From: Actinomycetota bacterium
Lineage (GTDB): Bacteria > Actinomycetota > Acidimicrobiia > Acidimicrobiales > JAJPHD01
Assembly: GCA_021325455.1 (NCBI GenBank)
Contig: JAJPHD010000026.1
Coordinates: 62,001 to 126,000 of the forward strand
Direction: 5' to 3'
Length of the DNA stretch: 64,000 bases
Positions 2,337-49,297 of this stretch are shown here, piece by piece. Position 1 is the first letter of the stretch, and every line of letters begins with the position of its first letter. A program made the translations under genes and the position numbers. A model generated the notes under the pieces. It saw nothing but the letters and a program-made list of their open reading frames with translations. It was not told the DNA's origin and made no database searches.

Positions 2337-2344
2337 GCCCGCCC

Positions 2345-9819: not shown

Positions 9820-9968
9820 GCCGGGAGCAGGGCGGTTGCAGAGGGTCCCCGCTGGGCCACCGGCCCCCTCGAGAGTCACCGGGCCCCTTGTCCGCCCCCG
9901 GCACGCCGGCGAGTGGCGCTCCGGGGCCGGGAAGGGGCACGTGCAAGGCACAAGCAGAGAGGATCCCG

Positions 9969-11099: not shown

Positions 11100-11174
11100 C
11101 CGCCGCCGCTGCCCGGCTCCCGCTCGGCCCGGCTTCAATGCCGGAGCTGCGATGGTGGCTACATTCGTCCTCCT

Positions 11175-12275: not shown

Positions 12276-12392
12276 CCGAGGTCGGCGCCTTCGGATCGGG
12301 TCGTCCGGGGCAGCGACCATCACGCTCTGGCACACGCACTCCGGCGAGCAGATCGAGGTCACGGTCGGCGCCGCCTCGTGCTCGACCTCTGC

Positions 12393-13235: not shown

Positions 13236-13336
13236 GGCGGGCCTAGGCTCACGCCAGAGGGTCGTCCGGCCCTCCTGCCGGGGCGTTCCGGTGTGCCCCT
13301 CCAGGCCGGCCGGACAGACGAAAGGAGGAGGAGCAC

Positions 13337-14575: not shown

Positions 14576-14629
14576 GGAGCGCAGCACGGACCCGCGACGG
14601 TGGGGCCGGCCCGACTCGCAGGAGCGCGC

Positions 14630-15472
14630 ATGAAGGTGCACATATCGATGGACATGGAGGGCGTGGCCGGGGTGGCAGCTGGTGCCGACACCACCCTCGG
14701 CGCCCCCCACTACGAGTACTGCCGCCGTCTCATGACCGGTGAGTGCAACGCCGCCATCGCCGGTTGCTTCGATGCGGGGGCTGCCGAGGTGGTGGTGAAC
14801 GACTCCCACGGCACCATGCTCAACCTCTTGCAGGAGGAGCTCGACGAGCGGGCCAGGGTCGTCCGGGGCAGGCCCAAGCCCCTCGGGATGATGCAGGCGC
14901 TGGACCGGGGCATGGATGCCACCTTGTTCATCGGCTACCACGCTGCTGCCGGCCATGGTGACGGGGTGCTCAACCACACGATGAGGGGGCGCGACCTCCT
15001 GAGGGTCTCCCTGAACGGCGAGATGGCCGGAGAGCTGAGGCTGAACGCCGCCATGGCAGGCTGGCACGGGGTCCCCGTGGCCCTGGTCTCGGGGGACGAC
15101 GTGGTTTGCCGAGAAGCCCGTGAGACCCTGCCCGGCACCGGAGTCGTGGAGGTGAAGGAGGCCATCGACAAGTACACCGCCTTGTCCCTCCATCCCGGCA
15201 GAGCCAGGCAAGCCATACGTCAGGGAGCGGCCTCCGCCCTCGAGCGCCTCGCCGAGATCCGGCCCTACCGGGTGGACCCTCCCTTCGCCCTCAGGATCGA
15301 GTGGAGCTCCACCAGCATTGCCTCTTGGTGTGAAGGTGTCCCCGGAGTGAAGCGGGTCTCCCCCCGGGAGGTCGAGTACGTCTCCAGCGACTATCCGGAG
15401 GTCTACCGCCTGCTCAGGGTCCTCCTGATGGTGGCCAGCGCCTCCACCGGGACGCCTCACTCCTACGACTGA
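14630..15472 (+). CDS. M55 family D-aminopeptidase (DppA-like)
   Basis: 280 residues. The zinc-binding start is MKVHISMDMEGVAGV (the DMEG signature), followed by VNDSHGTMLN near residue 60, GYHAAAGHGDGVLNHT near 105 and MAGELRLNAAMAGWHGVPVALVSGDD. These are the hallmarks of DppA, a decameric D-aminopeptidase that releases N-terminal D-residues from D-Ala-D-Ala and similar peptides. The ATG at 14630 is chosen over an upstream frame start because the DMEG strand must be N-terminal and AGGAG precedes it. Together with the M19 dipeptidase, the MFS gene and the peptide-type binding protein nearby, it points to scavenging of D-peptides or peptidoglycan-derived peptides. Confidence 0.9.
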   Translation: MKVHISMDMEGVAGVAAGADTTLGAPHYEYCRRLMTGECNAAIAGCFDAGAAEVVVNDSHGTMLNLLQEELDERARVVRGRPKPLGMMQALDRGMDATLFIGYHAAAGHGDGVLNHTMRGRDLLRVSLNGEMAGELRLNAAMAGWHGVPVALVSGDDVVCREARETLPGTGVVEVKEAIDKYTALSLHPGRARQAIRQGAASALERLAEIRPYRVDPPFALRIEWSSTSIASWCEGVPGVKRVSPREVEYVSSDYPEVYRLLRVLLMVASASTGTPHSYD

Positions 15473-34595: not shown

Positions 34596-35495
34596 ATGAC
34601 CAGCGACCAGCCGCAACCGCCGGCGGGCCCGGCCCCCACCCCCGGCTCGGGCCGGCGGGCCCGGCTCCTCGGCATGGCCCTGCTGGCCCTGGTCGCTGCC
34701 CTGGTGCTGGGGGGCTGCAACCTCCCCACCTTCGGGACCTACACGCCCATCACCAAGCAGGAGCAGGACGCCTACAGCCTCTACCAGGGTCTCACCATCG
34801 CGGCCATGGTGGTGGGGGGCATCGTGTGGGGCCTCATCATCTGGTGCCTGCTGCGCTACCGCCGGACCAAGCGCCAGGCCGAGACGGGCGAGCTGCCCAA
34901 GCAGACCCGCTACAACATCAAATGGGAGGCGGTCTACACCATCACCCCCATCCTCATGGTGATCGGCATCTTCGTCTACACCGTGATCGCCGAGGACGCC
35001 GCCGACCAGGTCGTGAGGCACCCCAACGTCACCGTGGACGTGTCTGCCTTCCAGTGGGGATGGCAGTTCAACTACCCGGTCGGTGGGGGCAAGGTCATCC
35101 AGGTCCTGCCCAAGCGGGCCCCCACCCCTTCGCCCAGCCAGGCCAACCAGGGGGAGCAGGCCCTGGCCAGCCCGGTCGAGTACCCGATCATGGTGCTGCC
35201 TGTCAACAAGACCGCCCACATCAACCTGGTCTCCAACGACGTGGTGCACGGCTTCTACGTGCCCGCCTTCGAGTTCAGCCGCTACGCCCAGCCCGGGGTG
35301 ACCAACCAGTTCGACTTCACCCCCACCAGGACGGGGTTCTTCCCCGGCCGCTGCACACAGTTCTGCGGGCTGTACCACACTGAGATGCTGTTCTGGGTGA
35401 AGGTGGTCTCCCAGTCCGCCTACCACCACTGGGTGGCCAGCGGTGGCAAGTCGATACCCACCAACACGACCGGAAAGGGCCTGCCCGAAGGATGA
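34596..35495 (+). CDS. ctaC: Cytochrome c oxidase subunit II (aa3 type), lipoprotein form
   Basis: 299 residues. The N-terminal signal ends in an LGGC lipobox, so the protein is lipid-anchored as in other actinobacteria. Two membrane helices follow ([25 protein letters not shown] and [23 protein letters not shown]), then the extracellular cupredoxin domain. The binuclear CuA site is complete: the upstream ligand region VHGFYVPAF and the loop [14 protein letters not shown] with C-x3-C, His and Met. The aromatic electron-entry patch FQWGWQFNY is present. It takes electrons from the bc complex's cytochrome c. The first gene of ctaC-ctaD-ctaF; the stop overlaps the ctaD ATG (ATGA). Confidence 0.95.
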
Positions 35496-37177
35496 CCCTC
35501 CTCGACGAAGCCGCCGCCCTTCATCTCCCCGTGCACGAGGAGGAGGAGGAGCTACCTCCCGGGCTCCTCAAGTGGTTCACCAGCACCGACCACAAGTCGA
35601 TCGGCAAGAGCTACCTGTACACCTCCATGGTGTTCTTCTTCATGGCCGGCCTCATGGCCATGATGATCCGCACCCAGCTGATCCAGCCCGACACCGGCTT
35701 CTTCGACCAGGCGACGTACAACGAGCTGTTCACCATGCACGGCAGCTTGATGATGTACCTCTTCGCCGGTCCCTTCGCCTTCGGCGGCTTCGCCAACCTG
35801 ATCATCCCCCTCCAGATCGGGGCGCCGGACATGGCGTTCCCCCGCCTCAACCTCCTCTCCTACTGGCTCTACGCCGCGGGCGGGGTCATCATGATCTCGG
35901 GCTTCTTCGTCCAGGGCGGGGCGGCCGAGTTCGGCTGGGTGGCCTATGCCCCCCTGTCGAGTGCCACCAACAGCCCCGGGGCTGGCCCCGACCTGTGGAT
36001 CGCCGCCCTGATACTCACGGGGTTCTCGGCCATCTTCACCGGGGTGAACCTCGTCACGACCATCTTCTACCTGCGGGCCCCCGGCATGACCATGTTCCGG
36101 ATGCCCATCTTCACCTGGAACATGCTGGTGACGGCCATCCTGATCCTGATCGCCTTCCCGGTCCTCACCAGCGCCCTGGTCATGCTGTACTGCGACAGGC
36201 ACTTCGGCGCCCACTTCTTCACGGTGTCGGGCGGCGGTGTTCCTATCCTCTGGCAGCACCTGTTCTGGTACTTCGGGCACCCCGAGGTCTACATCCTGGC
36301 CCTGCCGTACTTCGGGATCGTGACCGAGATACTGCCGGTCTTCTCCCGCAAGCCCGTCTTCGGCTACAAGGGGCTGGTCTTTGCCACCCTGGCCATAGCC
36401 GGCCTGTCCACCAGCGTGTGGGCCCACCACATGTTCACCACCGGCGTGGTGCTGCTCCCCTTCTTCTCGGGCATGTCCTACCTGATCGCCGTGCCCACGG
36501 GGATCAAGTTCTTCGCCTGGATCGGCTCCATGTGGAAGGGCCAGATCACCCTGGAGACCCCGATGATGTTCGCCATCGGGTTCCTGTTCGTGTTCCTCCT
36601 GGGCGGCCTCTCCGGGGTGCTCCTCGCCTCCCCCCCCATCGACTTCTTCGTGCACGACACCTACTACGTGGTGGCCCACTTCCACGAGGTGCTGATAGGC
36701 ACTGCCGTGCTGGGCGGCTTCGCTGGCTACTACTACTGGTACCCCAAGTTCACGGGCCGGATGCTGCGCAGCCGCCTGGGCCAGATCCACTGCGTGCTGC
36801 TGATCATCGGCTTCATCCTCCAGACCATGCCCCAGTACGTGCTGGGCCTCTACGGCATGGCCCGGCGCATCGCCACCTACACCCCGGCGGACCACTGGAC
36901 CACCCTCAACGTCCTGTCCAGCGCCGGGGCGTACCTGATCGGGGTCTCCTTCCTGTTCTTCCTCGTCAACCAGTGGATCTCCTGGCGGCGCCCCATACCC
37001 GCCGGTGACAACCCCTGGGACGGGCACGCCCTGGAGTGGGCCACCAGCTCGCCCCCACCGCACCACAACTTCCACTTCCTTCCCCCCATCCGCTCCGAGC
37101 GTCCCACCTGGGACATGAACCACGGCGAGCCGGCCCGGGTGGACGTGGCCGGTCCCACGGGGGTGACCGTGCGGTGA
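35492..37177 (+). CDS. ctaD: Cytochrome c oxidase subunit I
   Basis: 561 residues, about 12 membrane helices. Heme a/a3 and CuB ligands are visible: [12 protein letters not shown] (low-spin heme His), [11 protein letters not shown] (CuB His and cross-linked Tyr), AHHMFTTG (CuB His pair) and [11 protein letters not shown] (heme a3 and heme a His). This is the catalytic oxygen-reducing, proton-pumping subunit. The N-terminal tail carries an acidic EEEEELPPG run. It overlaps ctaC and ctaF by 4 nt each. Confidence 0.97.
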
Positions 37178-37623
37178 GCATGAGGAGCCTCATGGCCAAG
37201 GCGGTGGGGACCTCCAAGGGGACCGGTGGGTTTCGCAGCGAGGCTCTCCTCTTCCTCGGCACCGCCGCCTTCTTCGCCATCGTCCTGGGCGTCTACTGGT
37301 TCAGCAGTTACGAGGACGGGGGCTCCCTCCTCCTGCTGTTCACGGTGTGCCTGGGCCTCCTGCCCGGCAGCTACCTGTTCTGGTGGTCCCGGCGCATGCG
37401 GCCTCGGCCCGAGGACCGCCCTGCCGCCACCCTGGAGGAGGGGGCGGGCACCGTGAACTCCTTCCCCGACCGGAGCGTGTGGCCCCTCACCGTGGGCGTG
37501 TCCATGGGTTTCGTGGCCCTCGCCTTGGCCTTCGGCCCCTGGCTGGCGGTCATAGGAGGGGTGGTGGCCATCATCTCGTTCGTGGGCGTGATCGCCGAGA
37601 GCCGGCGGGGCGGGGTCGTCTAG
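37174..37623 (+). CDS. ctaF: Cytochrome c oxidase subunit IV, actinobacterial CtaF type
   Basis: 149 residues with four membrane helices ([79 protein letters not shown]). Size, topology and position after ctaD fit the small accessory subunit IV of actinobacterial aa3 oxidase, though sequence motifs are few. The GTG at 37174 overlaps the ctaD stop as GTGA; an ATG two codons later is also possible. Confidence 0.8.
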
Positions 37624-37637
37624 CCCCACGACGGGGC
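37623..37637 (+). terminator. Hairpin at the end of the ctaCDF operon
   Basis: GCCCC-ACGAC-GGGGC gives a 5-bp GC stem that starts on the last base of the ctaF stop codon. No T-tract. It lies between two convergent operons and could serve either. Confidence 0.3.
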
Positions 37638-37672
37638 CAGGGGCCTGAGGGCCGGGGCGAAGCAGCCCGCTC

Positions 37673-39508
37673 CTACCTGATCGACAGGGCCAGTGCTCCT
37701 CCTATGACGGCCAGGCCCAGCACGATCCAGGTCACGTAGTCGGTGACCACCCCGCTCTGGAAGCGCCGGATCGGGCCTACCAGGCCCAGACCGGGTTCGA
37801 GCCCCCTCCGCAGCAACGGCAGGCGCCGCCAGTAGAGAGAGACGAGCGCCAGCACGGCCGCCCCGGCCGCCGACCCCACCCCGGTGGCGACGTCGGCGAT
37901 GGTGATGCCCGTGGGCTCGGGGGGCTGAGGTGCCTGGGCGTGCAGCACCCGGGCCCCGGAGAGGACGGTGGCGTTGTACGCCCCCTGGTCCTGGAACCGG
38001 ACCGCCGCCGCCTGCACCACCGAGCCCAGGTGGGGCAGCAGGCCCACGGCCACCGCCAGGGCTACCAGGACGAGGGGGGGCAGGACCATAGAAAGGGGCG
38101 TCCGGCCCCGGCCCTCCTCGGTCTCGGAGTGCTCCTCGGAGGCCTCGGCCGCCATGCGGGGGTCCTCGGACGGGGCGTCCCCCAGGCCCCAGAAGACCCC
38201 TCCCCCGGCCCGCAGCACGGCCCCCCCGACCAGGATGGACGTGATGATGAGCACGGCGGTGACCCAGGCCATCCCGTGGCTGTAACCGCTCTCCTCGATG
38301 TAGCCCTTGCCCAGGTAGGTGGCGAAGGGCGGTAGGTCGGCCAGGCCCAGGCCGGCCAGGATGTACACCGCCCCGGTGACCGGCAGGCGCCGGCCCCGCC
38401 CGTGCAGCCAGGTCTCGTTGATCGATCTCAGGCGATGCAGCACGATCCCGGTGCAGAGGAAGAGAGCCCCCTTCACCAGGCCGTGGCCCACCACGTAGAT
38501 GGCCGCCCCGGCCAGGCCCAGGGGGGTGAGCAGGGCCACACCCATCAGGAACATGCCGGCGTGGCTGATGGTGGAGAAGGCGAGGATCCGCTTCAGGTGG
38601 CGCTGCCGGAAGCAGAACAGGGCCCCCACCACGGCCGTGGCTGCCCCCAGGGCCAGGAGGGTGGAGCTGATGGCTCCCCGGTGACCCAGGGCGGAGCCGA
38701 ACATCGACCAGTACACCCTGGCCACCCCGTACAGGCCCAGCTCAACCATGGCGCCGGAGAACAGCACGCACACCGGGCTCGGGGCCACCGCCTCGGCGTC
38801 GGCGGTCCAGAAGTGGAAGGGGACGATGGAGGCCTTGACGAGGAGGCCCACGACTATGAGCACGAAGGACACCACCACCAGCCCGTCGGGGCGGTGGCCG
38901 GCCAGGGCCCGGCCTACCTGGGCCATGTTGAGGGCCCCGGTCCGGCCATAGACCAAGGCGATGCCGGCCAGGGACAGGTAGGCCCCCACGCTGTTGGTGA
39001 TGGCGAAGTTGAGGGCCCCCTGGAGGGGCCCCCGCTCCTCGGTCCGGTAGGCCGTGAGGGCATAGGCGGCCACCCCCATCACCTCGAAGAAGACGAACAG
39101 GTCGAACACGTCGCCGGTGAGGCAGAACCCGGCCATGCCGGCCAGGAAGACCAGCATGAGGGCGTGGTAGAAGGTGGACACCCGCTCGAAGTAACGCCAC
39201 GAGAAGACCATCGCCGCCGTCACGAGGAGGCCGGCGAAGGCAGCCAGCCCCGCGCTCAGAGGGCTGGCTACGAAGTCAATCCCGAGCGCCACCCCGTGGG
39301 CGGGCCGGAAGCCGCCGAACCAGTACACCTGGGCGCTGCCCGCCCCCACCGTGAGGGCCATGAGCATGGCCGTGACCGCCGCCGCGGTGAGGATGGCCAG
39401 CCCGTCCAGGGCCCAGCGGTTACGGCGCTGGAACGCGGCGCTGGCGGCCGACAGCCCGGCCGCCACCAGGAGGGGGACGGCCACGGCCAGAGGGAGGAGG
39501 GTGCGCAC
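37673..39508 (-). CDS. mnhD: Mrp/Mnh cation:proton antiporter subunit D (NuoN/MrpD-like)
   Basis: 611 residues, about 14-16 membrane helices. It is the only large antiporter-type subunit in the cluster. FDLFVFFEVMGVAAYALTAYR carries the conserved membrane Glu of complex-I-like antiporter subunits, followed by ALNFAITNSVGAYLSLAGIALVYGRTG, VGLLVKASIVPFHFWTADAEAVAPSPVCVLFSGAMVELGLYGVAR (conserved Lys and TM8 region), and HLKRILAFSTISHAGMFLMG. It ends about 100 residues longer than typical MrpD, with an extra loop and terminal helices. It would translocate H+ against Na+ or K+ with the small Mnh subunits. Last gene of the bc-mnh unit, 21 nt after mnhC. Confidence 0.88.
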   Translation of the reverse strand: MRTLLPLAVAVPLLVAAGLSAASAAFQRRNRWALDGLAILTAAAVTAMLMALTVGAGSAQVYWFGGFRPAHGVALGIDFVASPLSAGLAAFAGLLVTAAMVFSWRYFERVSTFYHALMLVFLAGMAGFCLTGDVFDLFVFFEVMGVAAYALTAYRTEERGPLQGALNFAITNSVGAYLSLAGIALVYGRTGALNMAQVGRALAGHRPDGLVVVSFVLIVVGLLVKASIVPFHFWTADAEAVAPSPVCVLFSGAMVELGLYGVARVYWSMFGSALGHRGAISSTLLALGAATAVVGALFCFRQRHLKRILAFSTISHAGMFLMGVALLTPLGLAGAAIYVVGHGLVKGALFLCTGIVLHRLRSINETWLHGRGRRLPVTGAVYILAGLGLADLPPFATYLGKGYIEESGYSHGMAWVTAVLIITSILVGGAVLRAGGGVFWGLGDAPSEDPRMAAEASEEHSETEEGRGRTPLSMVLPPLVLVALAVAVGLLPHLGSVVQAAAVRFQDQGAYNATVLSGARVLHAQAPQPPEPTGITIADVATGVGSAAGAAVLALVSLYWRRLPLLRRGLEPGLGLVGPIRRFQSGVVTDYVTWIVLGLAVIGGALALSIR

Positions 39509-39529
39509 GCCGGCGAGGAGAGGAGCGGC

Positions 39530-39874
39530 TCAGCCCTGGAGCTGGCGGAGGTCCTCTGGGTCCAGGGTGCCGAAGCGCTTGTGGGCCTGCACGGCCAGGG
39601 CCAGCAGCAGGGCCGACACCGCCGCCTCCACCACCACGTCGGTGAGGGCCAGGGCCTGCACGACGGGGTCCACGGCCGGTGTGGACCGAGGGATGTCGGA
39701 GAAGAAGGGGGCCGCCGCCCCCGCCTTGTAGCCCACGCCCAGCAGCAGCACGTAGGTGGAGGACTGGACCACGGCCAGGCAGATGATGAGGTGGACGAGG
39801 TGGCGGCTGGTGACTATCCCGTACAGGCCCACGGCCAGGATCCAGGCCACGACGATGAAGGGGAAGATCTGCAT
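39530..39874 (-). CDS. mnhC: Mrp/Mnh antiporter subunit C (NuoK-like)
   Basis: 114 residues, three membrane helices (IFPFIVVAWILAVGLYGIVTSR, LVHLIICLAVVQSSTYVLLLGVGY, ALALTDVVVEAAVSALLLALAVQ). The last helix, PVVQALALTDVVVEAAVSALLLALAV, is the NuoK/MrpC signature. Its ATG shares one base with the stop of the upstream B-subunit gene (TGATG), so translation should be coupled. Confidence 0.9.
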   Translation of the reverse strand: MQIFPFIVVAWILAVGLYGIVTSRHLVHLIICLAVVQSSTYVLLLGVGYKAGAAAPFFSDIPRSTPAVDPVVQALALTDVVVEAAVSALLLALAVQAHKRFGTLDPEDLRQLQG

Positions 39875-40629
39875 CAATGCCTCCGGACGATCAGGGTCTG
39901 CTCCAGGAACTCGCTGGCCACCACGACGAAGGCCGCCGTCACCTCGATGCCCACGAAGAAGCTGATGAGGGCGATGGTCCCCGCCGAGTCCACCTCCCCC
40001 GGCATGTGCCCCAGGGGCAGGACGTTGGCCAGGAAGGCCGCCCCCACCCCCAGGGCGGAGATGCCGATGATGGCGAAGCTGGCCGCCCCCACCGCCTCCA
40101 CCGCGTCGGCGAGGGGGACGGGGCTGATCCTCTTCAGGGCCAGGAACTCGCCTGCCAGGTAGATCATGGCGAAGGCCGTGGCCAGGATCACCCCGCCCTG
40201 GAACCCGCCTCCGGGGCTCACCTGGCCGTGAGACACGATGTACCAGCCGACCACGACCGTGGGGCCGGTGAAGGTGATGGCCGCCACCCGCACGGCCTCG
40301 CTGGTGCCGGGGTCGGTGCGATCCCTGGCTTCGTCCACGGCGGAACGCTCCCTCTCCTCCCGCAGGTGGCGCAGGACCACGCCCATGCCCGTGGCCGCCG
40401 CGAACAGGATGAACTCCTCCCCCAGGGTGTCCATGGCGCGGTAGTCGAAGTTCACCGCCGACACGATGTCGGTGGCGTGGGTCTGGCGTATCCCTATGGC
40501 GTTGAGCACGTCGCCGTAGGGCCCCGGGTAGTGGCCGAACCCGGGCAGGCCCACCAGCCCCCACAGGAAGAAGGCCAGGACGGCTGCCATACCGGCCAGG
40601 AAGACCCCGCGGCGCACCCCCGGGGTCAC
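39874..40629 (-). CDS. mnhB: Fused MbhE-like domain + Mrp/Mnh antiporter subunit B
   Basis: 251 residues. The first 90 or so (N-terminal helix, then SAVNFDYRAMDTLGEEFILFAAATGMGVVLR) match the MbhE domain, normally the C-terminal end of MrpA. The rest is MrpB: FTGPTVVVGWYIVSHGQVSPGGGFQGGVILATAFAMIYLAG and a final helix GTIALISFFVGIEVTAAFVVVASEF. So the piece usually attached to MrpA is fused here to MrpB, while the NuoL-like body of MrpA is absent. GTG start overlapping the preceding gene (GTGA). Confidence 0.85.
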   Translation of the reverse strand: MTPGVRRGVFLAGMAAVLAFFLWGLVGLPGFGHYPGPYGDVLNAIGIRQTHATDIVSAVNFDYRAMDTLGEEFILFAAATGMGVVLRHLREERERSAVDEARDRTDPGTSEAVRVAAITFTGPTVVVGWYIVSHGQVSPGGGFQGGVILATAFAMIYLAGEFLALKRISPVPLADAVEAVGAASFAIIGISALGVGAAFLANVLPLGHMPGEVDSAGTIALISFFVGIEVTAAFVVVASEFLEQTLIVRRH

Positions 40630-40880
40630 TCCTCTTGCCTCCTCACCTTGGCCAGGGTGAGGAGGAACAGGATCGGCAGGATCACCGCCCCTACCGTCAG
40701 CTGGGAGAGGGCCACGTCCGGCGCCTGGAAGGCGAAGAACAGCACCGCCAGCAGCAGCCCGTACACGCTGAGCAGCACGACCTGGCGGGAGGGCTGGCGC
40801 ATGAGGACCACCGCCGTGGCGCCGGCGGCGACCAGCACCAGTATGGCCGCCTGCAGGGCGGTCGTGCCCGGAGGAGTCAC
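40626..40880 (-). CDS. MbhD-type (DUF4040) antiporter subunit
   Basis: 84 residues, three membrane helices; VLLSVYGLLLAVLFFAFQAPDVALSQLTVGAVILPILFLL is the diagnostic MbhD/MrpA-C block (NuoJ-like). In standard seven-subunit Mrp it forms part of MrpA; here it is free-standing, as in archaeal Mbh/Mbx-type clusters. GTG start with GGAG close upstream. Confidence 0.85.
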   Translation of the reverse strand: MTPPGTTALQAAILVLVAAGATAVVLMRQPSRQVVLLSVYGLLLAVLFFAFQAPDVALSQLTVGAVILPILFLLTLAKVRRQEE

Positions 40881-40922
40881 CGCCGGCTCGCCTGGTCCCG
40901 CCGCTGGGTGGGCACGGCCCGG

Positions 40923-41267
40923 CTACCCGGTCTCCTCGGGACCGGGATCACCCTCGCCGGCCAGGAGGCGCCAGTTGCCCCGCTCCCGGATGGCGGCGGC
41001 CCGGGCCGTGGCATGGGTGAGGACGGGGCCCGACAGCACCACGAAGAGCAGCGCCAGCCACGTCTCGGTGGTGTTCTCCGAGTACCCCTTTTGCACCAGC
41101 ACGGCCAGGGCCACCAGCACCGGTGCCACCAGCGTGGCCAGGCCCACGTAGTGCAGCTTCTGGTAGGCGTCCTCCATCACCGCCACCCCAAGGGTGGAGC
41201 CCAGCACCACCACCACGGCCAGGGCCAGGAGGGCGTCAGCCACCACGTCCTTGACGAGCACCGTCAC
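40923..41267 (-). CDS. mnhG: Mrp/Mnh antiporter subunit G
   Basis: 114 residues, three helices: VVADALLALAVVVVLGSTLGVAVMEDAYQKLHYVGLATLVAPVLVALAVL, where the EDAYQKLHYVGLAT motif (usually DxYxRLH) is characteristic of MrpG. GTG start. The soluble C-terminal tail (RERGNWRLLAGEGDPGPEETG) is acidic. Confidence 0.9.
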   Translation of the reverse strand: MTVLVKDVVADALLALAVVVVLGSTLGVAVMEDAYQKLHYVGLATLVAPVLVALAVLVQKGYSENTTETWLALLFVVLSGPVLTHATARAAAIRERGNWRLLAGEGDPGPEETG

Positions 41268-41290
41268 TTCCTCCCCTCACCCGCCCCCGC

Positions 41291-41542
41291 TCAAAGCCAA
41301 CGCTCCAGGGCGCGCAGGAAGACCAGGCCGCTCCCCAGCAGCAAGACGGCCACCACCACGGCCAGCTCGAACTCGCCCGGGCGGCCGAAGCCCTCCGACA
41401 GCATGATGAGGACCATCACCACGACGGCCCCCACCACCTGTAGGGCCATCACCGCCTCGATCAGCTTGCCCCGCCACAGGACCGCACCGAGGGGGAGGGT
41501 GCAGGCCAGCATGGCGATGGAGGCGGCGACGAACCCGGTCAT
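41291..41542 (-). CDS. mnhF: Mrp/Mnh antiporter subunit F
   Basis: 83 residues, three helices. It matches MrpF in size and order in the operon (KLIEAVMALQVVGAVVVMVLIMLSEGF, where MrpF usually has DR-x-A-x-x). The ATG overlaps the mnhE stop by 4 nt. Part of the small-subunit block that anchors the antiporter. Confidence 0.85.
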   Translation of the reverse strand: MTGFVAASIAMLACTLPLGAVLWRGKLIEAVMALQVVGAVVVMVLIMLSEGFGRPGEFELAVVVAVLLLGSGLVFLRALERWL

Positions 41543-42045
41543 CCCGCCCCGCTCCGGTCCGCCCTCTCCCCCCTGACAACCAGGTGGTGGACCACCGCCA
41601 CCTCCCGCTCCCGGTCGATACCGAGCACGAACGTTCCCGGAGGCGCCGACCGCCCCATCACGATGAGCACCCTCCTGCTAGCTCCTTCGGCCGAGTCCTG
41701 CCCCCACGGTGTCGGCACCTCCCGGAACCCGCTGGGGGGCTGCTCCCCCCGCGCCAGCCGGCGCCACAGTACGCCTAGGAGCAGGACGGTGTCCCTGGCC
41801 ACCTGCACCGGCAGGCCCAGGGCGGGGGCCACCCACTCGATGCGGGGGCGGAAGCGCGAGCCCACCTGGTACTGGACCAGCTCGGCCAGGAAGGCCCCCA
41901 GGGCGGAGGCGCCCGCCCCGGCCAGGAGCTCGGCCAGGGCAATGGAGTCGTCGAGCAGCACCCACAGCGCCATGAGCACGGCCCACCACACCACCCATGA
42001 CCCCACCCGCCGGGCCAGTGGGCCCCGACCGGCCACCTCCGCCAC
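41539..42045 (-). CDS. mnhE: Mrp/Mnh antiporter subunit E
   Basis: 168 residues. Two N-terminal helices, then a cytoplasmic domain typical of MrpE (WVAPALGLPVQVARDTVLLLGVLWRR; TFVLGIDREREVAVVHHLVV). The first mnh gene in the run, starting 21 nt after the qcrB stop with no obvious promoter, so it is probably read through from the bc genes. Confidence 0.85.
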   Translation of the reverse strand: MAEVAGRGPLARRVGSWVVWWAVLMALWVLLDDSIALAELLAGAGASALGAFLAELVQYQVGSRFRPRIEWVAPALGLPVQVARDTVLLLGVLWRRLARGEQPPSGFREVPTPWGQDSAEGASRRVLIVMGRSAPPGTFVLGIDREREVAVVHHLVVRGERADRSGAG

Positions 42046-42066
42046 GGCCGGCAGCTCCCGGGCCGG

Positions 42067-43782
42067 CTAGCCGCCAGCCGCCGGGCCGCCCGCTCCACCC
42101 CCGGGTGGGCCGCCGTCCCCGGACCCGCCTCCCGGGCCGCCGTCGGCACCGCCGTTCCGGGGCCGCCGGGAGCGCAGCCCGCCAAGGCCCCCGTTGCCCC
42201 CGGGACGAAGCAGGTCCCGAAGAGAGGGCCGGGGTGCGGGCTGGCGGGGGGCCTGCAGCACCCCGGACTCGGAGAGGGCCGGGGACCCGTCCCCGCCCAC
42301 CCTGATCACCTGGCGGCCCACCCCCCGGGAGAGGTCGGCCCTCGGAACCGGCATCGGCTCCAGCTCTATGTGCTCGTCCCCCGGACGCGGGTCGGACTCC
42401 CGCAGGACGTACCCGCCGCTGGCGCTGCGCATGATAATGCTGGCCCGGGGACGGCGGCCCGCCACCGGGATGCGCTGCGCCTCCTTGCACAGCCACCAGG
42501 CCAGGTAACCGGTGGCGATGGGTGCGAACACCAGGATCATGCGCAGCGACCACAGGACGGCGTTGAGCGAGACCGAGAAGAAGTTGGCCAGCAGGTCGGT
42601 GGCGCTGCCCAGCAGCAGGACCGCATAGAAGGTGAACACGGCCACCCCTATGGCGGTGCGGACCGGCCGGTCCCGTGGCCGCTCCAGGAGATGATGGCTG
42701 CGGAGGTTGTCCTTGGTGAACTTGGCCTCCAGCCACGGCCAGGCCATGAGGAAGGGCACCGTGATGCCGGGGAGGAAGATGGCGGGGAAGAACAGGTTGG
42801 GGATCATGTGGCCCTGCATGTTCACTTCCCACGAGGGCATGAGCCGCAAGGCGCCGTCGAGCCAACCCATGTACCAGTCGGGCTGCACCAGGTAGGGGAC
42901 CTTGTAGGGGATGTAGGGCCCGTAGAGCCAGATGGGGTTGATCTGGGCCAGCCCGCCCAGGGCGGCTATCACCCCCCACACCATCAGCTGGAGGCCCACG
43001 CTCTTGAAGGCGAAGATGGGCCAGACCGGCGAGCCCACGACGTTGCGCTCGGTGGCCCCCTTCCCTGGCCACTGGGTGTGCTTCTGGTGCCAGATGAGGG
43101 CCAGGTGGGCCCCCAGGAGGCCGGCGATGACGCCGGGCAGGAGGAGGATGTGGACCACGTAGAGCCGCCCGTCCCAGACCGTGCCCGGGTAGTTGCCCCC
43201 GAAGATGAAGAAGGCGAGGTAGGAGCCGACGACCGGGATGGCCTCGATGACCGAGAACATGATCCGCACCCCGGTGCCCGAGATGAGGTCGTCAGGGAGC
43301 GAGTAGCCGATGTACCCGTTGATGAGAGACGTGAAGAGGAGCAGCACCCCGATGACCCAGTTGATCTCCCGGGGCCGGCGGAAGGCGCCGGTGAAGAAGA
43401 TGCGGGCCATGTGCACGACGATGGCGGCAATGAAGATGTCCGCCGCCCAGTGGTGCATCTGGCGGATGACGAGGGCCGCCCGCACGTAGAGGCTCATGTT
43501 GACCGTCGAGGCGTAGGCGTCGGTCACGACCTGGCCGTCGAGCGGCTTGTAGGGCCCGTTGTAGATGTGGGTGCTGAGGGAGGGGTTGAAGTAGAAGGTC
43601 AGGTAGATCCCGGTCAGGATCAGGATGATGAAGGAGTAGAGGGCGACCTCCCCCATCATGAAGGTCCAGTGGTCGGGGAAGATCTTGTTGAGCGCCTTGG
43701 ACACCCAGTGGGCGGCGCCCAGGCGGTCGTCCCCCCAGCGGGCCAGGCGCCCGCCCTGCTGGAGCATCTGCTCGGGCATCAT
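42067..43782 (-). CDS. qcrB: Menaquinol-cytochrome c reductase cytochrome b subunit
   Basis: 571 residues. The two b-heme ligand helices are clear (RQMHHWAADIFIAAIVVHMARIFF; VVHILLLPGVIAGLLGAHLALIWHQKH), with GFSLPDDLI-type text as GYSLPDDLISGTG at the quinol site. Eight or so helices end near residue 435. It then carries an about 130-residue Pro/Gly/Arg-rich tail ending in glycine-rich repeats, longer than I expect for QcrB and probably cytoplasmic and disordered. The ATG overlaps the qcrA stop. Confidence 0.95.
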   Translation of the reverse strand: MMPEQMLQQGGRLARWGDDRLGAAHWVSKALNKIFPDHWTFMMGEVALYSFIILILTGIYLTFYFNPSLSTHIYNGPYKPLDGQVVTDAYASTVNMSLYVRAALVIRQMHHWAADIFIAAIVVHMARIFFTGAFRRPREINWVIGVLLLFTSLINGYIGYSLPDDLISGTGVRIMFSVIEAIPVVGSYLAFFIFGGNYPGTVWDGRLYVVHILLLPGVIAGLLGAHLALIWHQKHTQWPGKGATERNVVGSPVWPIFAFKSVGLQLMVWGVIAALGGLAQINPIWLYGPYIPYKVPYLVQPDWYMGWLDGALRLMPSWEVNMQGHMIPNLFFPAIFLPGITVPFLMAWPWLEAKFTKDNLRSHHLLERPRDRPVRTAIGVAVFTFYAVLLLGSATDLLANFFSVSLNAVLWSLRMILVFAPIATGYLAWWLCKEAQRIPVAGRRPRASIIMRSASGGYVLRESDPRPGDEHIELEPMPVPRADLSRGVGRQVIRVGGDGSPALSESGVLQAPRQPAPRPSLRDLLRPGGNGGLGGLRSRRPRNGGADGGPGGGSGDGGPPGGGAGGPAAGG

Positions 43783-44762
43783 GACCGGTAACCACCCTTG
43801 GGGTAGGCGCCCCTCTCCCAGAAGCCGGGGCCGATGGGCTCCAGGAAGCCGTGCTGGGAGCGCAGGTTGCCCTTGCTGTCGACCATGAGAGCCAGTTGCG
43901 GGAGCGGCCTCGGTGCCGGGCCGAAGATCGGGAAGGCCCCGATCAGGATGTCGAAGAGGGACTGGTGGCAGGGGCAGAGCAGCTGCTGGGTCTGCGCTTC
44001 ATACAGGGAGACCGGGCAGCCGGCATGAGTGCAGACCTTGGAGAAGGCGAAGTAGCCGTCGGGGGTCCAGCTGGCCGGGCCCTGCCTGGTGGGCAGGGGC
44101 TCGGCAGCCACGTGGATGAGGATCACCTGGTCTATGGCCTGAGCGTTGGGATCGGTCTCGAACCCCGCCGGGAACACCGTCATGTAGGAGCCCACGTCCA
44201 TGTCGGCCACGTTCACCGGGCTCCCGTCCTCTCTCACCACCAGGGTCCCCTTGCCCCAGTTGGTCTTGAACAGGGTCAGCTTGGGCTGGGGGCCGAGGGA
44301 CCGGAGGGGGAAGATCAAGACGGCGCTGAAGGCGGCCCCGGCCATGCCGAGGAGGCCCAGGAGGAAGGGTCGGCGGCCCACGATGACCGCCCCCCGCCCG
44401 AAGGAGCCGATGAAGCTGCGCCGGTCCTCGGGGTTGCTCTCCAGGTCCTCCCGCCCTTCGTACTCCCGGTCCTCGACGAAGGGCCCCCTCGGCATCAGGT
44501 ACTTGCCCCACGAGATCATCCCCGCCCCCAGGCAGGCCAGGGCGAAGCCCAGGAAGCCGCCCTCCAGCTGGGGCTGGCCCCCCACCGAGTACGTGGTGGC
44601 GAGGGCCACGGTGGAAAGGAAGCTCAGGGAGAACAGGACCCCTACCAGCACCTCGGCCTGCCAGGGGTGGCGTACGCCCGGCAGCAGGCGGGGGTCGTCC
44701 TCCGGGAAGGGGGGGAGGTCGGGCTCCTGGGCCTGGACCGGGTGGCGGGTGTGCTCGCTCAT
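43779..44762 (-). CDS. qcrA: Menaquinol-cytochrome c reductase Rieske iron-sulfur subunit
   Basis: 327 residues in the long actinobacterial form: three N-terminal membrane helices (VLVGVLFSLSFLSTVALATTY, GFLGFALACLGAGMISWG, FLLGLLGMAGAAFSAVLIFPL) and a periplasm-side Rieske domain. The 2Fe-2S ligands are CTHAGC and CPCHQS near the C terminus. It moves electrons from menaquinol to the diheme cytochrome QcrC. ATG start, 16 nt after qcrC. Confidence 0.95.
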   Translation of the reverse strand: MSEHTRHPVQAQEPDLPPFPEDDPRLLPGVRHPWQAEVLVGVLFSLSFLSTVALATTYSVGGQPQLEGGFLGFALACLGAGMISWGKYLMPRGPFVEDREYEGREDLESNPEDRRSFIGSFGRGAVIVGRRPFLLGLLGMAGAAFSAVLIFPLRSLGPQPKLTLFKTNWGKGTLVVREDGSPVNVADMDVGSYMTVFPAGFETDPNAQAIDQVILIHVAAEPLPTRQGPASWTPDGYFAFSKVCTHAGCPVSLYEAQTQQLLCPCHQSLFDILIGAFPIFGPAPRPLPQLALMVDSKGNLRSQHGFLEPIGPGFWERGAYPKGGYRS

Positions 44763-44778
44763 CTTCCCGTCTCCGCCG

Positions 44779-45777
44779 TCATGCCTTGGCCCTGTCGCCG
44801 ATCCACCAGAGGAGGCCCAGCATGGCCCCCAGCCCGCCGAATATGGCCACGAAGCCCTCGGTGATGGGCCCGACGTGGGCTAGCCCGTCCCCTCCCTTGT
44901 CGTAGGGGTGCTGGATGCCTCCCTTGGTCACGTAGTAGGCGATGTCGGTGGCCTGCTCCTGGTCGAGCTGGAGGGGGCTGAACCGGGGCATGTTCCCGGG
45001 GCCGGTCCTCATGGCCTCCAGCACCTCCCGGGGCGTCACCGGCCCCTGGCCCCCGTCGGACTTGAGCAGGCCCGTCGGCCCCCCGTAGAGGGAGGGGGCG
45101 TAGAGGCCGTTGGAAAGGGCGTCCCCCACCCCCGTGACGGCGTGGCAGCCAGCGCAGTTGGTGACGAAGAGGGAGAAGCCGGCCCCCATGTTGGCGTTCT
45201 TGAAGTCCACGTTGGGGATCCCGGGGCCCCCGGGGCTCAGGGAGGTGACGTACTTCACGATGTCGCGGATCTGGGTGCGGTCGAAGCGAGGCTGCTTGAT
45301 CACGGCCTGGGCGGTGGGGAAGGCGAGGGGCATCCGCCCCGTGGACAGCCAGAAGTCGACGGTGGCGGCACCGACGCCCTGCAGGTTGGGGGCCCGGGCC
45401 GAGCCCTCGGCGTCCACCCCGTGGCAGGAGGCGCAGTTCTCCTGGAAGAGCAGGCGGCCCTTGCCGAGGTTGGCCGTGGCCAGGGAGACCGTGGTGGGCG
45501 GGGAGACACCGGTGGTGGTGGTGACGGCGGGCTCGATCTGGGTTGGCGTGGGTGAGGGGAGAGTGGTGGGCTCCCCCTTGTAGAGGGTGGTGGGGGGAGC
45601 CGGCACGGTGACCTGCGAGGTGGTGGTGGCGCCCTTGGCGGACGCCGCCTTCGCGGAGGCGGGGCGCGCCGCGTAGCGCACCTGGGCCCGGGCGGGCGCC
45701 GAGGCGAAGAAGGACACGCCCACGGCGGCCACGAAGGCCACGAGGAGGATGGGAAGGGCGAGCAGGCGGCTACGCAC
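44779..45777 (-). CDS. qcrC: Diheme cytochrome c subunit of the bc complex
   Basis: 332 residues. Signal/anchor region LLALPILLVAFVAAVGVSFFASAPARA, a long Pro/Thr-rich linker (TTTSQVTVPAPPTTLYKGEPTTLPSP), then two cytochrome c domains with heme sites CASCH and CAGCH, and a C-terminal membrane anchor (EGFVAIFGGLGAMLGLLWWIG). This diheme QcrC is the actinobacterial substitute for soluble cytochrome c and wires bc to aa3 in a supercomplex. The GTG at 45777 has GAGGA upstream. The longer upstream frame overlaps ctaE and is a shadow. Confidence 0.94.
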   Translation of the reverse strand: MRSRLLALPILLVAFVAAVGVSFFASAPARAQVRYAARPASAKAASAKGATTTSQVTVPAPPTTLYKGEPTTLPSPTPTQIEPAVTTTTGVSPPTTVSLATANLGKGRLLFQENCASCHGVDAEGSARAPNLQGVGAATVDFWLSTGRMPLAFPTAQAVIKQPRFDRTQIRDIVKYVTSLSPGGPGIPNVDFKNANMGAGFSLFVTNCAGCHAVTGVGDALSNGLYAPSLYGGPTGLLKSDGGQGPVTPREVLEAMRTGPGNMPRFSPLQLDQEQATDIAYYVTKGGIQHPYDKGGDGLAHVGPITEGFVAIFGGLGAMLGLLWWIGDRAKA

Positions 45778-45785
45778 GGGGGTCC

Positions 45786-46376
45786 TCAGTGCACCAGGAA
45801 GATCGTGCTGTACAGACCGATCCAGACCACGTCGACGAAGTGCCAGTAGTACGAGACGGCCTGGAAGACCTGGCGCTCCCCTGGGTCCCCGGGCTGGCCG
45901 ACCATCCGGCCCATCAGCCCGATCATCGCCACCAGGCCCAGGATCACGTGCAGGCCGTGGATGCCCGTCATGACGAAGAAGAGGGAGGCAAAGGCGTCGG
46001 TGGAGGCCGAGTACGGGACTATCAGCCAGTCCGCCGCCTGGCCCAGCACGAAGGCCCCGCCCAGCAGGAAGCTGAGGACCACCCACCAGCGGGCGGCGGT
46101 CCGCCGGCCGTGCTCCTCGTTCCACACCCCCGCCTGCATGGTGAAGCTGGAGAGCACGAGGATGAAGGTGAAGATGGCTTCCTCGATGGTGTCGGTGTGG
46201 TCCCCGGGCGGGGGCCAGGTCACCGCGTGGGCCCGGATCGTGTAGTAGGCGGCGAACAGGCCGCTGAAGAACATGAGCTCCGAGCCGAGCCAGATCATCA
46301 CGCCAACGCTCAGCAGGTTGGGGCGCTGGGGCCGGGCCGGTTCGACCCCCTGCTGGACGGCGATCGCCTGGGTCAT
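45786..46376 (-). CDS. ctaE: Cytochrome c oxidase subunit III
   Basis: 196 residues, five helices: VGVMIWLGSELMFFSGLFAAYYTIR, AIFTFILVLSSFTMQAGVW, WWVVLSFLLGGAFVLGQAADWL, FFVMTGIHGLHVILGLVAMIGL, YYWHFVDVVWIGLYSTIFLV. The E and H residues of the heme-copper subunit III core (SELMFFSG, GxHGxH, WHFVD) are present. First gene of the apparent ctaE-qcrCAB-mnh unit, with only 8 nt between it and qcrC. Confidence 0.95.
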   Translation of the reverse strand: MTQAIAVQQGVEPARPQRPNLLSVGVMIWLGSELMFFSGLFAAYYTIRAHAVTWPPPGDHTDTIEEAIFTFILVLSSFTMQAGVWNEEHGRRTAARWWVVLSFLLGGAFVLGQAADWLIVPYSASTDAFASLFFVMTGIHGLHVILGLVAMIGLMGRMVGQPGDPGERQVFQAVSYYWHFVDVVWIGLYSTIFLVH

Positions 46377-46385
46377 CGGGGACAG

Positions 46386-46391
46386 TTTCTA
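46386..46391 (-). promoter_or_regulatory. Putative -10 box (TAGAAA) upstream of ctaE
   Basis: Minus-strand TAGAAA lies 9 nt before the ctaE ATG, with GTGAAC about 18 nt further upstream as a possible -35. It would start the ctaE-qcrCAB-mnh transcript in the 81-base gap after pdxH. Confidence 0.35.
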
Positions 46392-46425
46392 GTCGAGAGT
46401 CCCACCGGCGTTCACATCGGCGGGA

Positions 46426-46441
46426 GCGCCGTTCCCGGCGC
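46426..46441 (-). terminator. Hairpin after pdxH
   Basis: GCGCC-GGGAAC-GGCGC on the minus strand forms a 5-bp GC stem 17 nt after the pdxH stop. There is no T-tract. It would separate the helD-pdxH transcript from ctaE. Confidence 0.35.
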
Positions 46442-46457
46442 CGCCCTCCTCGGGCGC

Positions 46458-47078
46458 CTAAGGCGCCAGACGCTCCAGCCGCCAGGTGGCCCCCTGCCTG
46501 GTCCAGCGCAGGCGGTCGTGCAGGCGGTTGGGGCGGCCCTGCCAGCACTCGACCACCTCGGCCTCCAGGCGGTAGCCGCCCCACCAGGGAGGCAGCGGCA
46601 CCTCCTCCCCGGTGAAGCGCTGCTCCATCTCGGCGAACCTGTCCTCCAGGGCGCCCCTGGACGCCACCACCTGGCTCTGGTGGGACGCCCAGGCAGCCAG
46701 CTGGCTCCCCCGCGGCCTGGTGGCGAAATAGGCCGCCGAGTCCTGCTCCGAGAGCCTCTCGACCCCCCCGGTGACCCGGACCTGGCGCTGCAGCTGCTGC
46801 CAGTGCAGGATGGCCGCCGCCCTGGGGTTGGCAGCCAGCTCCCGGCCCTTGGCGCTGTCACGGTTCGTGTAGAAGACCAGCCCCCTTTGGTCCACCCCCT
46901 TCACCAGCACCATGCGGGCCGAGGGCCGGCCGTCGGGGGTGGCGGTAGCAAGGGCCATGGCGTCGGGCTGGAGCACCCCCGCCGCCACGGCGTCAGCCAG
47001 CCAGCGCCGCACCTGGTCCAGGGGATCACCGGCCACTGCTGCCTCGTCCAGGACCCGGCCGCCCTCGGTCCCGCCCAC
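46458..47078 (-). CDS. pdxH: Pyridoxamine/pyridoxine 5'-phosphate oxidase
   Basis: 206 residues of the FMN split-barrel PNPOx family: MALATATPDGRPSARMVLVKGVDQRGLVFYTNRDSAKGRELAANPRAAAILHWQQLQRQVRVTG contains the FMN contacts RMVLVK and YTN. SQLAAWASHQSQVV and the C-terminal dimerisation text NRLHDRLRWTRQ complete the family pattern. It makes pyridoxal phosphate. I chose the GTG at 47078, just after the helicase stop; the open frame extends 14 codons further into that gene. Confidence 0.9.
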   Translation of the reverse strand: MGGTEGGRVLDEAAVAGDPLDQVRRWLADAVAAGVLQPDAMALATATPDGRPSARMVLVKGVDQRGLVFYTNRDSAKGRELAANPRAAAILHWQQLQRQVRVTGGVERLSEQDSAAYFATRPRGSQLAAWASHQSQVVASRGALEDRFAEMEQRFTGEEVPLPPWWGGYRLEAEVVECWQGRPNRLHDRLRWTRQGATWRLERLAP

Positions 47079-47079
47079 T

Positions 47080-49185
47080 TCAGGCCGCCTCGGCAAGGGG
47101 CAGGGGCAGGGGGCGGGCATGGACCACCGTGAGCCGGCGGGTAGGCCGGGTGAGGGCCACGTAGAGAGAGCGCAGGCTGCCTGCCTCCTCCACGATCTGG
47201 GCGGGCTCGACGACGATGACGGCGTCGAACTCCAGCCCCTTCACGGACTCCACGGAGAGGACCGTCACCGGCGCCTCCAGGCTCTCGGCCCCCAACCGCG
47301 AAGGCAGGCCCCCCTCCAGCGCCTCCCGCAGCTCGCCCACCCTCGACCGGCTGCCCACCACCGCCAGCGTGCCGGGTCGGACCGCCTCGAGCTCCTGGCG
47401 GGCCCGGGCCGCCACCTCGTCGACCAGCGAGGCGCCTGGGACGGCCACCACCGCCGGCGGGAAGGACGTGGAGCGGACCGACCGGGGCGGGCGGAGGCCC
47501 GGGGCGGCGGCGGCCAGCACCGGGGCGGCCAGCTCCATGACCTCGGCCGGCGTTCGGTAGTTGACGCTGAGCTCGGCACGCCGCACCGGCCGCCCGGGAG
47601 CCAGGACCCGGGTCAGGTCCTCCCAGCGGCGGGCGGCATGAGGCCCGGTGGCCTGGGCCAGGTCCCCCACCACGGTCATGGAGCCCGACAGGGAACGCCG
47701 GGCCAGCATGCGCAGCTGCATGGGAGACAGGTCCTGGGCCTCGTCCACCACGATGTGCCCGTAGCTGCGGGGCCCGGCGTCCCCTGAGCGGCGCCGGGTG
47801 GGCCCCAGGAGGACCTGGGCCTCGTCCAGCAGGGGGATGTCGGCCCGGGTCCAGGGGATGTCGGCCAGCGTGGCGGCCCGAGGACGATGGAGAGCGGCCT
47901 GCTCGGCCGGGTCGAGGATGCCCTGGCCGGCCCGGGCCAGCAAGGGTGGTGCCCCGTACAGGTCGTGCAGCAGCTCCTCGGGGCGCAGCCGCGGCCACAT
48001 ACGGTCCAATGCCTCCACCACCTCCGGCGCCCGGCTCAGCTCGGCGGCCAGCTCCGCCTCCGCACCCCCCTGCCCGGGGACCCCGGCCAGGCGATGGGCC
48101 CGCCCCACCTGGGCCGCCAGCCGGGCCGTGACCTGGGCCGCCACCGCCTGGCGGCGCCCGTTGTGGGTACCGGGGCGGCGCTTGGTGGCGGCCACGATCC
48201 GGCGCAGCTCGTCCCGGCTCAACCTCAGCACCTCGGCCCCCCAGGCCACCACCAGGTCATGGCGGAGGGGGCGCTGGCGGCACCGCACGGCGGCCGCCAC
48301 CACCTGGGCCATCCGCTCCTCGCCCTTCAGGCGGGCGAGGGAGCGGTCCTCTTCGGCCCGGGGTCGGGCGTCGGGGTACAGGGCTTCGACCGTGGTGGAA
48401 GCCACCCCGTTCTCCCCCAGGGAAGGCAGGACCTGCTCGATGTAGCGAAGGTAGAGGGGGTTGGGCCCGACCACCAGCACCCCCTGTTGCTCCAGGGGGA
48501 AGCGGTAGGTGTAGAGCAGGTAGGCAGCACGGTGCAGCGCCACCACGGTCTTGCCCGTGCCTGGTCCCCCCTGCACCACGAGGAGGCCGGGCAAGGGGGC
48601 CCGGATGATCTCGTCCTGCTCCTTCTGGATGGTCGCCACGATGTCCCGCAGGTGTGCTGACCGGGACCGTTCCATGGCTGCCAGCAGGGCCCCGGAGACC
48701 TCGGGCCCTTCCTCCCCATGGGCCCCCTCCGGCAGGCTGAAGACCTCGTCCTCGATCCCCACCAGCTTGCGGCCCTCGCTGGCGAAGTGCCGCCGGCGCC
48801 ACAGCCCCATGGGGTCGCGATAGGTGGCCCGGTAGAAGGGCTCGGCCACCGGGGCCCGCCAGTCCACCACCAAGGGCTCGAGGTCTGGTCCGGACACGGC
48901 CAGGCGGCCGATGTGGTAGCTGGCGCCCCCACCGCCTCCGTCGCCGGGCAGGAGGTCTATGCGGCCGAAGCAGAGAGGCTGGTCCCCGATGTCCAGTTGC
49001 TCCAGGCGGTGGAGGCTGGTGCGCACCAGGACGTCACGCTCCTCCCTGGCCTGGGGGGTCCCTCCCCGGCCCTGGTCGAGGACCGAGACCATGAGCGCAC
49101 GGGCCGCCTGCCGGCTGGCCTCCAACTGCTCGTAGGCCAGGTCGATGTGGGCCTGCTCAGCTTCAAGGTCGGGGTGGTCTACCAC
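47080..49185 (-). CDS. UvrD/HelD-like superfamily 1 helicase (RNA polymerase-associated type)
   Basis: 701 residues. Walker A is VQGGPGTGKTVVALHRAAYLLYTYR near residue 230, DEAQDLSPMQ is Walker B, with the QATG and NYRTPAEVM helicase blocks and a C-terminal SVKGLEFDAVIVVE and LYVALTRPTRRL (motifs V and VI). An N-terminal coiled region (DLEAEQAHIDLAYEQLEASRQAARAL) and insert (YHIGRLAVSGPDLEPLVVDWRAPVAEPFYRATYRDP) are typical of HelD, which removes stalled RNA polymerase and in some actinobacteria (HelR) gives rifamycin tolerance. The GTG at 49185 has GGAGG five bases upstream; the longer frame starts at a TTG with no site. Followed directly by pdxH. Confidence 0.85.
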   Translation of the reverse strand: MVDHPDLEAEQAHIDLAYEQLEASRQAARALMVSVLDQGRGGTPQAREERDVLVRTSLHRLEQLDIGDQPLCFGRIDLLPGDGGGGGASYHIGRLAVSGPDLEPLVVDWRAPVAEPFYRATYRDPMGLWRRRHFASEGRKLVGIEDEVFSLPEGAHGEEGPEVSGALLAAMERSRSAHLRDIVATIQKEQDEIIRAPLPGLLVVQGGPGTGKTVVALHRAAYLLYTYRFPLEQQGVLVVGPNPLYLRYIEQVLPSLGENGVASTTVEALYPDARPRAEEDRSLARLKGEERMAQVVAAAVRCRQRPLRHDLVVAWGAEVLRLSRDELRRIVAATKRRPGTHNGRRQAVAAQVTARLAAQVGRAHRLAGVPGQGGAEAELAAELSRAPEVVEALDRMWPRLRPEELLHDLYGAPPLLARAGQGILDPAEQAALHRPRAATLADIPWTRADIPLLDEAQVLLGPTRRRSGDAGPRSYGHIVVDEAQDLSPMQLRMLARRSLSGSMTVVGDLAQATGPHAARRWEDLTRVLAPGRPVRRAELSVNYRTPAEVMELAAPVLAAAAPGLRPPRSVRSTSFPPAVVAVPGASLVDEVAARARQELEAVRPGTLAVVGSRSRVGELREALEGGLPSRLGAESLEAPVTVLSVESVKGLEFDAVIVVEPAQIVEEAGSLRSLYVALTRPTRRLTVVHARPLPLPLAEAA

Positions 49186-49297
49186 GACGTCCTCCAGTGG
49201 GCCAAGAAGGAGGATCGAGCATAGGGGCCGGGAGGGCGCCTCCGGGCTCGAGGACAAGGGGTGTCAGAACCGCCCCCGGCGGGGAAAATGACGTGCC

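Follow-up and report, generated by a model that had tools for sequence, protein, structure and literature searches.

A MrpA-less Mrp cluster behind qcrB in an Acidimicrobiales genome: probably a lineage-specific placement in a variable slot rather than a respiration-coupled pump

The 64,000-nucleotide (nt) stretch of DNA analysed here (the window; contig JAJPHD010000026.1 of an Actinomycetota assembly of the order Acidimicrobiales) carries the genes of a cytochrome bcc complex followed by a set of Mrp-type (mnh/mbh) antiporter genes. Open reading frames and hidden Markov model searches placed eleven genes on the minus strand at 46376-37673, namely ctaE-qcrC-qcrA-qcrB and then seven Mrp-type genes, with intergenic gaps, read 5′ to 3′ from ctaE to mnhD, of 8, 16, −4, 21, −4, 23, 42, −4, −1 and 21 nt, so that the unit contains three 4-nt overlaps and one 1-nt overlap and its largest gap is 42 nt. 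The first four genes keep the order of the actinobacterial ctaE-qcrCAB operon, with QcrB and QcrC scoring above their curated cut-offs and QcrA below (Table 1). On the plus strand, ctaC (34596-35495), ctaD (35492-37177) and ctaF (37174-37623) converge on mnhD, and the stop codons of mnhD and ctaF are 49 nt apart. These coordinates confirm the one-strand run, the several 4-nt overlaps and the facing cta genes described in an earlier, sequence-only reading of this DNA. That reading also had the Mrp genes embedded in the bc operon, which is not the case: they form the 3′ end of the unit, appended after qcrB and outside the bc genes.

By their predicted content, the genes after qcrB belong to group 3 of the Mrp family, which has no MrpA, and they follow the order known from the stand-alone Mrp of Pyrococcus furiosus. 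MnhD is the sole antiporter subunit and the sole Proton_antipo_M match of the cluster; mnhA (mrpA) is absent, the set being of the Mbh type, the MbhD-like subunit has a gene of its own, and MbhE is joined to MnhB. The cluster thus holds subunits E, F, G, B, C and D together with the MrpA C-terminal (MbhD/MbhE) domains, the matches to MrpF and MbhE falling under the curated cut-offs. The mrpA gene with an N-terminal NuoL-like domain, typical of groups 1 and 2, is absent from the operon, and no hydrogenase-type gene as in MBH or MBS was found among the genes at 37673-49257. MBS and MBH chains were the best matches of MnhC and MnhD among solved structures. In PMC8415708, the stand-alone P. furiosus Mrp is given as mrpEFGBB′CD, with neither MrpA nor an energy-input module and with an unknown driving force, and MBS subunit E is of the same MbhE+MrpB fusion type as the window protein.

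Table 1. Features of the ctaE-qcrCAB-mnh unit and the facing cta genes in the window
Feature	Coordinates	Strand	Support
ctaE, cytochrome c oxidase subunit III; opens the unit	45786..46376	-	Pfam COX3 7.1e-22
qcrC, diheme cytochrome c subunit of the bcc complex	44779..45777	-	NCBIfam bc1_QcrC_actin 209.7 bits, cut-off 200
qcrA, Rieske subunit	43779..44762	-	NCBIfam bc1_QcrA_actin 1.1e-72, 245 bits (curated cut-off 275 not reached); Pfam Rieske
qcrB, cytochrome b subunit with Gly/Pro-rich C-terminal tail	42067..43782	-	NCBIfam bc1_QcrB_actin 596.8 bits, cut-off 500
qcrB-mnhE junction, 21 nt	42046..42066	-	promoter/terminator signal not above chance
mnhE/mrpE-like subunit	41539..42045	-	Pfam MNHE 37.7 bits, cut-off 27; sole MNHE match in the genome
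mnhF/mrpF-like subunit	41291..41542	-	Pfam MrpF_PhaF 23.0 bits, just below the cut-off of 23.3; position in the cluster
mnhG/mrpG-like subunit	40923..41267	-	Pfam PhaG_MnhG_YufB 49.7 bits
MbhD-like subunit, corresponding to a portion of the MrpA C-terminal domain	40626..40880	-	Pfam MbhD 65.6 bits; aligned to MBS/MBH chains and MrpA C-termini
MbhE-like and MnhB/MrpB-like fusion, type of MBS subunit E	39874..40629	-	Pfam MnhB 72.1 bits; MbhE weak, 20 bits, below the cut-off of 27
mnhC/mrpC-like subunit, C-terminus resembling MbhG/MbsG	39530..39874	-	Pfam Oxidored_q2 69.3 bits; 6u8y_G 3.1e-20, 6cfw_G 2e-15
mnhD/mrpD-like antiporter subunit, only one in the cluster	37673..39508	-	Pfam Proton_antipo_M 173 bits; nearest solved chains MbsH, MbhH, MrpD
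ctaC-ctaD-ctaF, cytochrome oxidase genes facing mnhD	34596..37623	+	Pfam COX2, COX1, Cyt_c_ox_IV

Whether the linkage recurs was read from both of its sides. MnhD was searched for in overlapping samples drawn evenly from larger groups (order, 298 genomes; class, 395; phylum, 396) and in a set of named genomes. The named set was limited to the top 80 among at least 594 relatives, and six of these were used (L071-L076; L073 and G196 are one genome), the others being distant. With a carrier defined by a full-family match at E 1e-75 or better, or by at least 40% identity in the named set, a threshold that misses more distant members, 28 other actinomycete carriers of the Mrp cluster were identified (7, 2, 14 and 5 in the order, class, phylum and named sets, respectively). 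In the stretch around the cluster, qcr or cta genes stood beside it in none of the 28, and its neighbours varied among these carriers; seven of the contigs end inside the cluster, and the 5′ side is in view in 21, two of them with 0.8-1.7 kb only. The qcrB gene, sought in 25 of the 28 (all except G777, G758 and G849), was found in 24, G343 giving no match and the weak match of G872 (30% identity) being counted, and in all 24 it lies on another contig or more than 100 kb from the cluster, the nearest same-contig case being G650 at ∼122 kb. In one carrier locus (L193, G615; 8134-9968), MnhD is split into two parts that lie in different reading frames, which may reflect a frameshift or an error of assembly.

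From the other side, a QcrB search of 148 relatives gave 73 matches at E 1e-120, of which 20 loci were fetched and compared with the window genes. The ctaE-qcrC-qcrA-qcrB block is present in all 20; its far side carries hemH- or hemY-like genes in 19, and a gene for a UvrD-like helicase is present in 13. The cta genes converge on qcrB in five loci (L237, L241, L242, L252 and L253, with L237 lacking a ctaD match), follow it in the same direction in another five (L243, L244, L245, L249 and L251) and are not in view in the remaining ten. No mnh cluster was found behind qcrB in the 19 loci that extend past its 3′ end (L239 stops within the gene), nor at the qcr loci of the seven carriers of the order, where the G259 contig ends directly after qcrB. 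The genes at or near this slot were read in ten loci, eight of the 20 plus L164 and L165 of two carriers, and matched a major facilitator superfamily (MFS) transporter, an amidohydrolase, a TrwC relaxase, aconitase, an NAD-dependent epimerase, an HpcH/HpaI aldolase (aldolase/citrate lyase), an ABC transporter, a phytanoyl-CoA dioxygenase, a TIG-domain protein and a nucleotidyl transferase. An empty form of the window arrangement was found as well, with the qcrB and ctaF matches touching in G048 (L242) and lying ∼134 nt apart in G136 (L158). The slot behind qcrB changes freely within the order. Neither survey found any conservation of the linkage, a lack which the sequence-only reading had itself named as one of the outcomes that would refute it and which holds for the genomes surveyed. 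The link, physical or regulatory, that had been suggested from the sequence between respiration and the control of cation levels is not supported, given that no other carrier has qcr or cta genes adjacent and that qcrB is distant wherever it was located.

Several observations were made at these loci in passing. Relatives within the order retain the cta/qcr block flanked on one side by hemH or hemY (window 33948-54660 and L237-L256), and the slot contents differ per genome. Upstream of ctaE (46458-49257), a pyridoxamine phosphate oxidase gene (pdxH) and a UvrD-like helicase gene form a pair that recurs before ctaE in L237, L238 and L239. In L240 (G021), the TrwC relaxase gene stands directly behind qcrB and is accompanied by a gene resembling a coupling protein by eye, a case which suggests that mobile elements may land at this slot. 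In L256 (G119; 1-9550), nuo genes with a weak MnhD match lie ∼2 kb from qcrB on the opposite strand, making a complex I and bc neighbourhood.

The histories of MnhD and QcrB also differ. In the MnhD tree, the window groups with the Pseudonocardiales metagenome-assembled genomes G934 and G935 and with G259 and G289 (five rows, 100/100), while in the QcrB tree it groups with G259 and G197 (100/100) and G934 and G935 join Pseudonocardia asaccharolytica (100/100). Concomitantly, the MnhD and QcrB identities to the window are uncorrelated (Spearman 0.11, n = 22). Because the trees conflict and the identities are uncorrelated, we infer a horizontal spread, and the pattern would fit a horizontal transfer of the Mrp cluster.

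A promoter scan found no promoter-like site within 36000-48000, and a consensus scan found no terminator-like site at the qcrB/mnhE junction (42046-42066); the sequence-only reading had named a promoter or terminator at this very place in advance as one of the findings that would speak against it, and neither was detected. Seven terminator-like matches, consensus matches only, were counted in the 12-kb region versus 2.5 expected, all of them away from the junction. A G+C-rich hairpin without a T run spans the qcrB stop and the mnhE start; its stability lies within the shuffled range (z −0.82, with 38 of 200 shuffles folding equally well), and it was rejected as a terminator or attenuator because shuffled sequence folds nearly as well. 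Given the tight spacing and the lack of promoter and terminator signals, ctaE-qcrCAB and the seven Mrp genes probably form a single transcript. The single unit claimed earlier is upheld as a tight same-strand arrangement with probable co-transcription, and is not upheld as a joint function of respiration and cation exchange.

The functional residues were read from tblastn alignments of the window proteins with the 28 other loci, counting only the loci with an aligned residue (n = 13 to 28). In MnhD, the proton-path residues are kept in keeping with the group 3 assignment: E142 in 26/27, K225 in 27/28 and K401 in 22/27 homologues, which correspond to the Glu of transmembrane helix (TM) 5 and the Lys residues of TM7 and TM12. 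MrpD E137 and K219 are the residues named in PMC5703873. In the motif around E256, MbsH, MbhH and the Dietzia MrpD have a lysine that is E in the window and in 18 of 28 homologues, and K in none of the 28. Cation-path residues have been proposed for the Anoxybacillus Mrp and MBH (PMC7419157), and their equivalents were mapped by counting along alignments to solved chains. MrpA E706 corresponds to G64 in the window (E in 0/23 homologues), MbhD E69 to Q60 (E in 6/23), MbhG D37 to Q37 (Q in 22/24, H in 2/24, D in 0/24) and MrpC H37/H40 to S38/Y41 (Y in 20/24); MbhG H41 is a further published cation-coordinating position. MrpF D35 corresponds to Q35 of MnhF (homologues E 10/13, D 0/13); this equivalence was judged by eye from a shared motif, with a primer sequence given in PMC7419157 as the reference, and a search of MnhF for solved MrpF chains gave chance matches to designed proteins only. 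The equivalents of D792 and E796, mapped through the MrpA C-terminus motif in the alignment, are D67 and E71 of the fusion protein and are kept in 23/23 homologues.

Thus, the cation-coordinating set of a Na+/H+ antiporter (MrpF D35, MrpA E706/MbhD E69, and MrpC H37/H40 or MbhG D37/H41) was not found in the window proteins. The product of the cluster is likely a proton-linked carrier, in agreement with the kept MnhD residues. Na+ or K+ as its exchange partner would be an assumption, and the Na+(K+)/H+ exchange ascribed to these genes in the earlier reading becomes uncertain in its chemistry because the published cation-coordinating residues are mostly replaced.

Taken together, the linkage very probably arose when a mobile group 3 Mrp cluster was placed, in this lineage, at a site of variable content, and does not represent a respiration-coupled pump. 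The MrpA-less cluster would have arrived behind qcrB, where the convergent qcr and cta operons meet and where relatives have unrelated genes or none, and is now probably transcribed with ctaE-qcrCAB. Most likely, it encodes a membrane complex of its own, independent of bcc-aa3, that would exchange protons for a cation via MnhD. The compact operon of a single genome offers little evidence of a functional link here, because the linkage was found nowhere else in the 28 carriers and 20 qcr neighbourhoods; a functional link is accordingly weakly supported, and a physical link very little.

The strongest competitor holds that the cluster has been selected behind qcrB so that ion exchange tracks respiration through shared expression, with no physical contact. 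Both the Mrp and the respiratory sets act on the proton gradient, and the tight spacing and likely single transcript would suit such selection, but the linkage occurs in none of the 28 other carriers and none of the 19 qcr loci that reach beyond the 3′ end of qcrB, and relatives fill the slot behind qcrB with unrelated genes, which makes this explanation unlikely.

A physical coupling, in which the bcc complex would supply the energy-input module missing from the MrpA-less Mrp and cytochrome bc and Mrp parts would build a redox-driven ion pump, draws on the antiporter inventory of the genome. No MrpA partner was found in the window genome, rated 96% complete, and none of its six Proton_antipo_M matches (three in the nuo cluster on contig C14, two on contig C28, plus MnhD) is MrpA-like. 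The C28 cluster (L263, G000:C28:20001-40000, ∼7280-14816) holds two antiporter-type subunits, a NuoH-like gene and 49-kDa/30-kDa-like genes; from its family matches and its position it resembles a hydrogenase-4 or complex I cluster. Complex I or this hydrogenase-like cluster was also considered as a hidden Mrp partner and rejected, as both lie elsewhere in the genome and nothing ties either to mnh. According to PMC7419157 and PMC8415708, MBH and MBS show that Mrp modules can be joined to redox enzymes, and the P. furiosus stand-alone Mrp (PMC8415708) likewise has no energy-input module. Against the coupling, all 28 other carriers have the cluster without qcr linkage, no contact subunit or fusion gene connects the two sets, and a completeness of 96% leaves room for an unseen partner, so that a redox-driven pump of this kind appears highly improbable. 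Least credible is an assembly artefact joining unrelated stretches at the qcrB-mnhE or mnhD-ctaF boundary: the assembly has 28 contigs and the junction occurs in none of the relatives examined, but both boundaries (21 and 49 nt) fall between intact genes within a 471-kb contig, and the outer genes (cta, qcr, ctaE, pdxH, UvrD-like, hemH and hemY) match relatives.

Some points weigh against lineage-specific placement by horizontal transfer with co-transcription. The genomes surveyed came from outside the window's own family, so that linkage at family or genus level lies beyond the survey and a function special to that family or genus may still exist. G259, whose cluster lies away from qcr, stays close to the window in the MnhD and QcrB trees alike, and vertical descent followed by relocation could explain part of the pattern. 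As to the transcript, a single TATCAT hexamer at 42436 inside qcrB, ∼390 nt before mnhE, may be an internal promoter, and actinomycete terminators without a T run escape the scan used. The cluster may matter more than the linkage: stand-alone Mrp modules that lack MrpA, have their cation ligands replaced and have no known energy input occur here and there across Actinomycetota, and they lend themselves to testing which parts of the Mrp machinery ion exchange needs and which cation, if any, moves.

The literature searched, in which subscription papers are mostly outside coverage, gave no recognised description of Mrp genes in a qcr operon, and the arrangement is best placed by comparison with its known parts. 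The actinobacterial ctaE-qcrCAB operon of the bcc-aa3 supercomplex has the identical four genes in the same order, whereas the window adds seven same-strand Mrp genes after qcrB. Closest to these seven is the P. furiosus group 3 Mrp, which, according to PMC8415708, shares the absence of MrpA and of a redox module of its own, the single MrpD and the order E, F, G, MbhD/MbhE/MrpB domains, C, D; it differs in fusing MbhD to MbhE, whereas the window has a free-standing MbhD and joins MbhE to MrpB. The window cluster is, moreover, bacterial, located after qcrB and largely without the published cation-coordinating residues. The Mrp modules of MBH and MBS have an equal subunit set, with the MbhE+MrpB fusion as in MBS, but the window cluster has no hydrogenase or sulfane reductase subunits. 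The group 1/2 Mrp Na+/H+ antiporters of Bacillus, Anoxybacillus and Dietzia share homologous E, F, G, B, C and D subunits and the MrpA C-terminal domains, whereas the window cluster lacks the MrpA N-terminal antiporter domain and replaces the MrpD lysine in the motif around E256 and the equivalents of MrpF D35, MrpA E706 and MrpC H37/H40.

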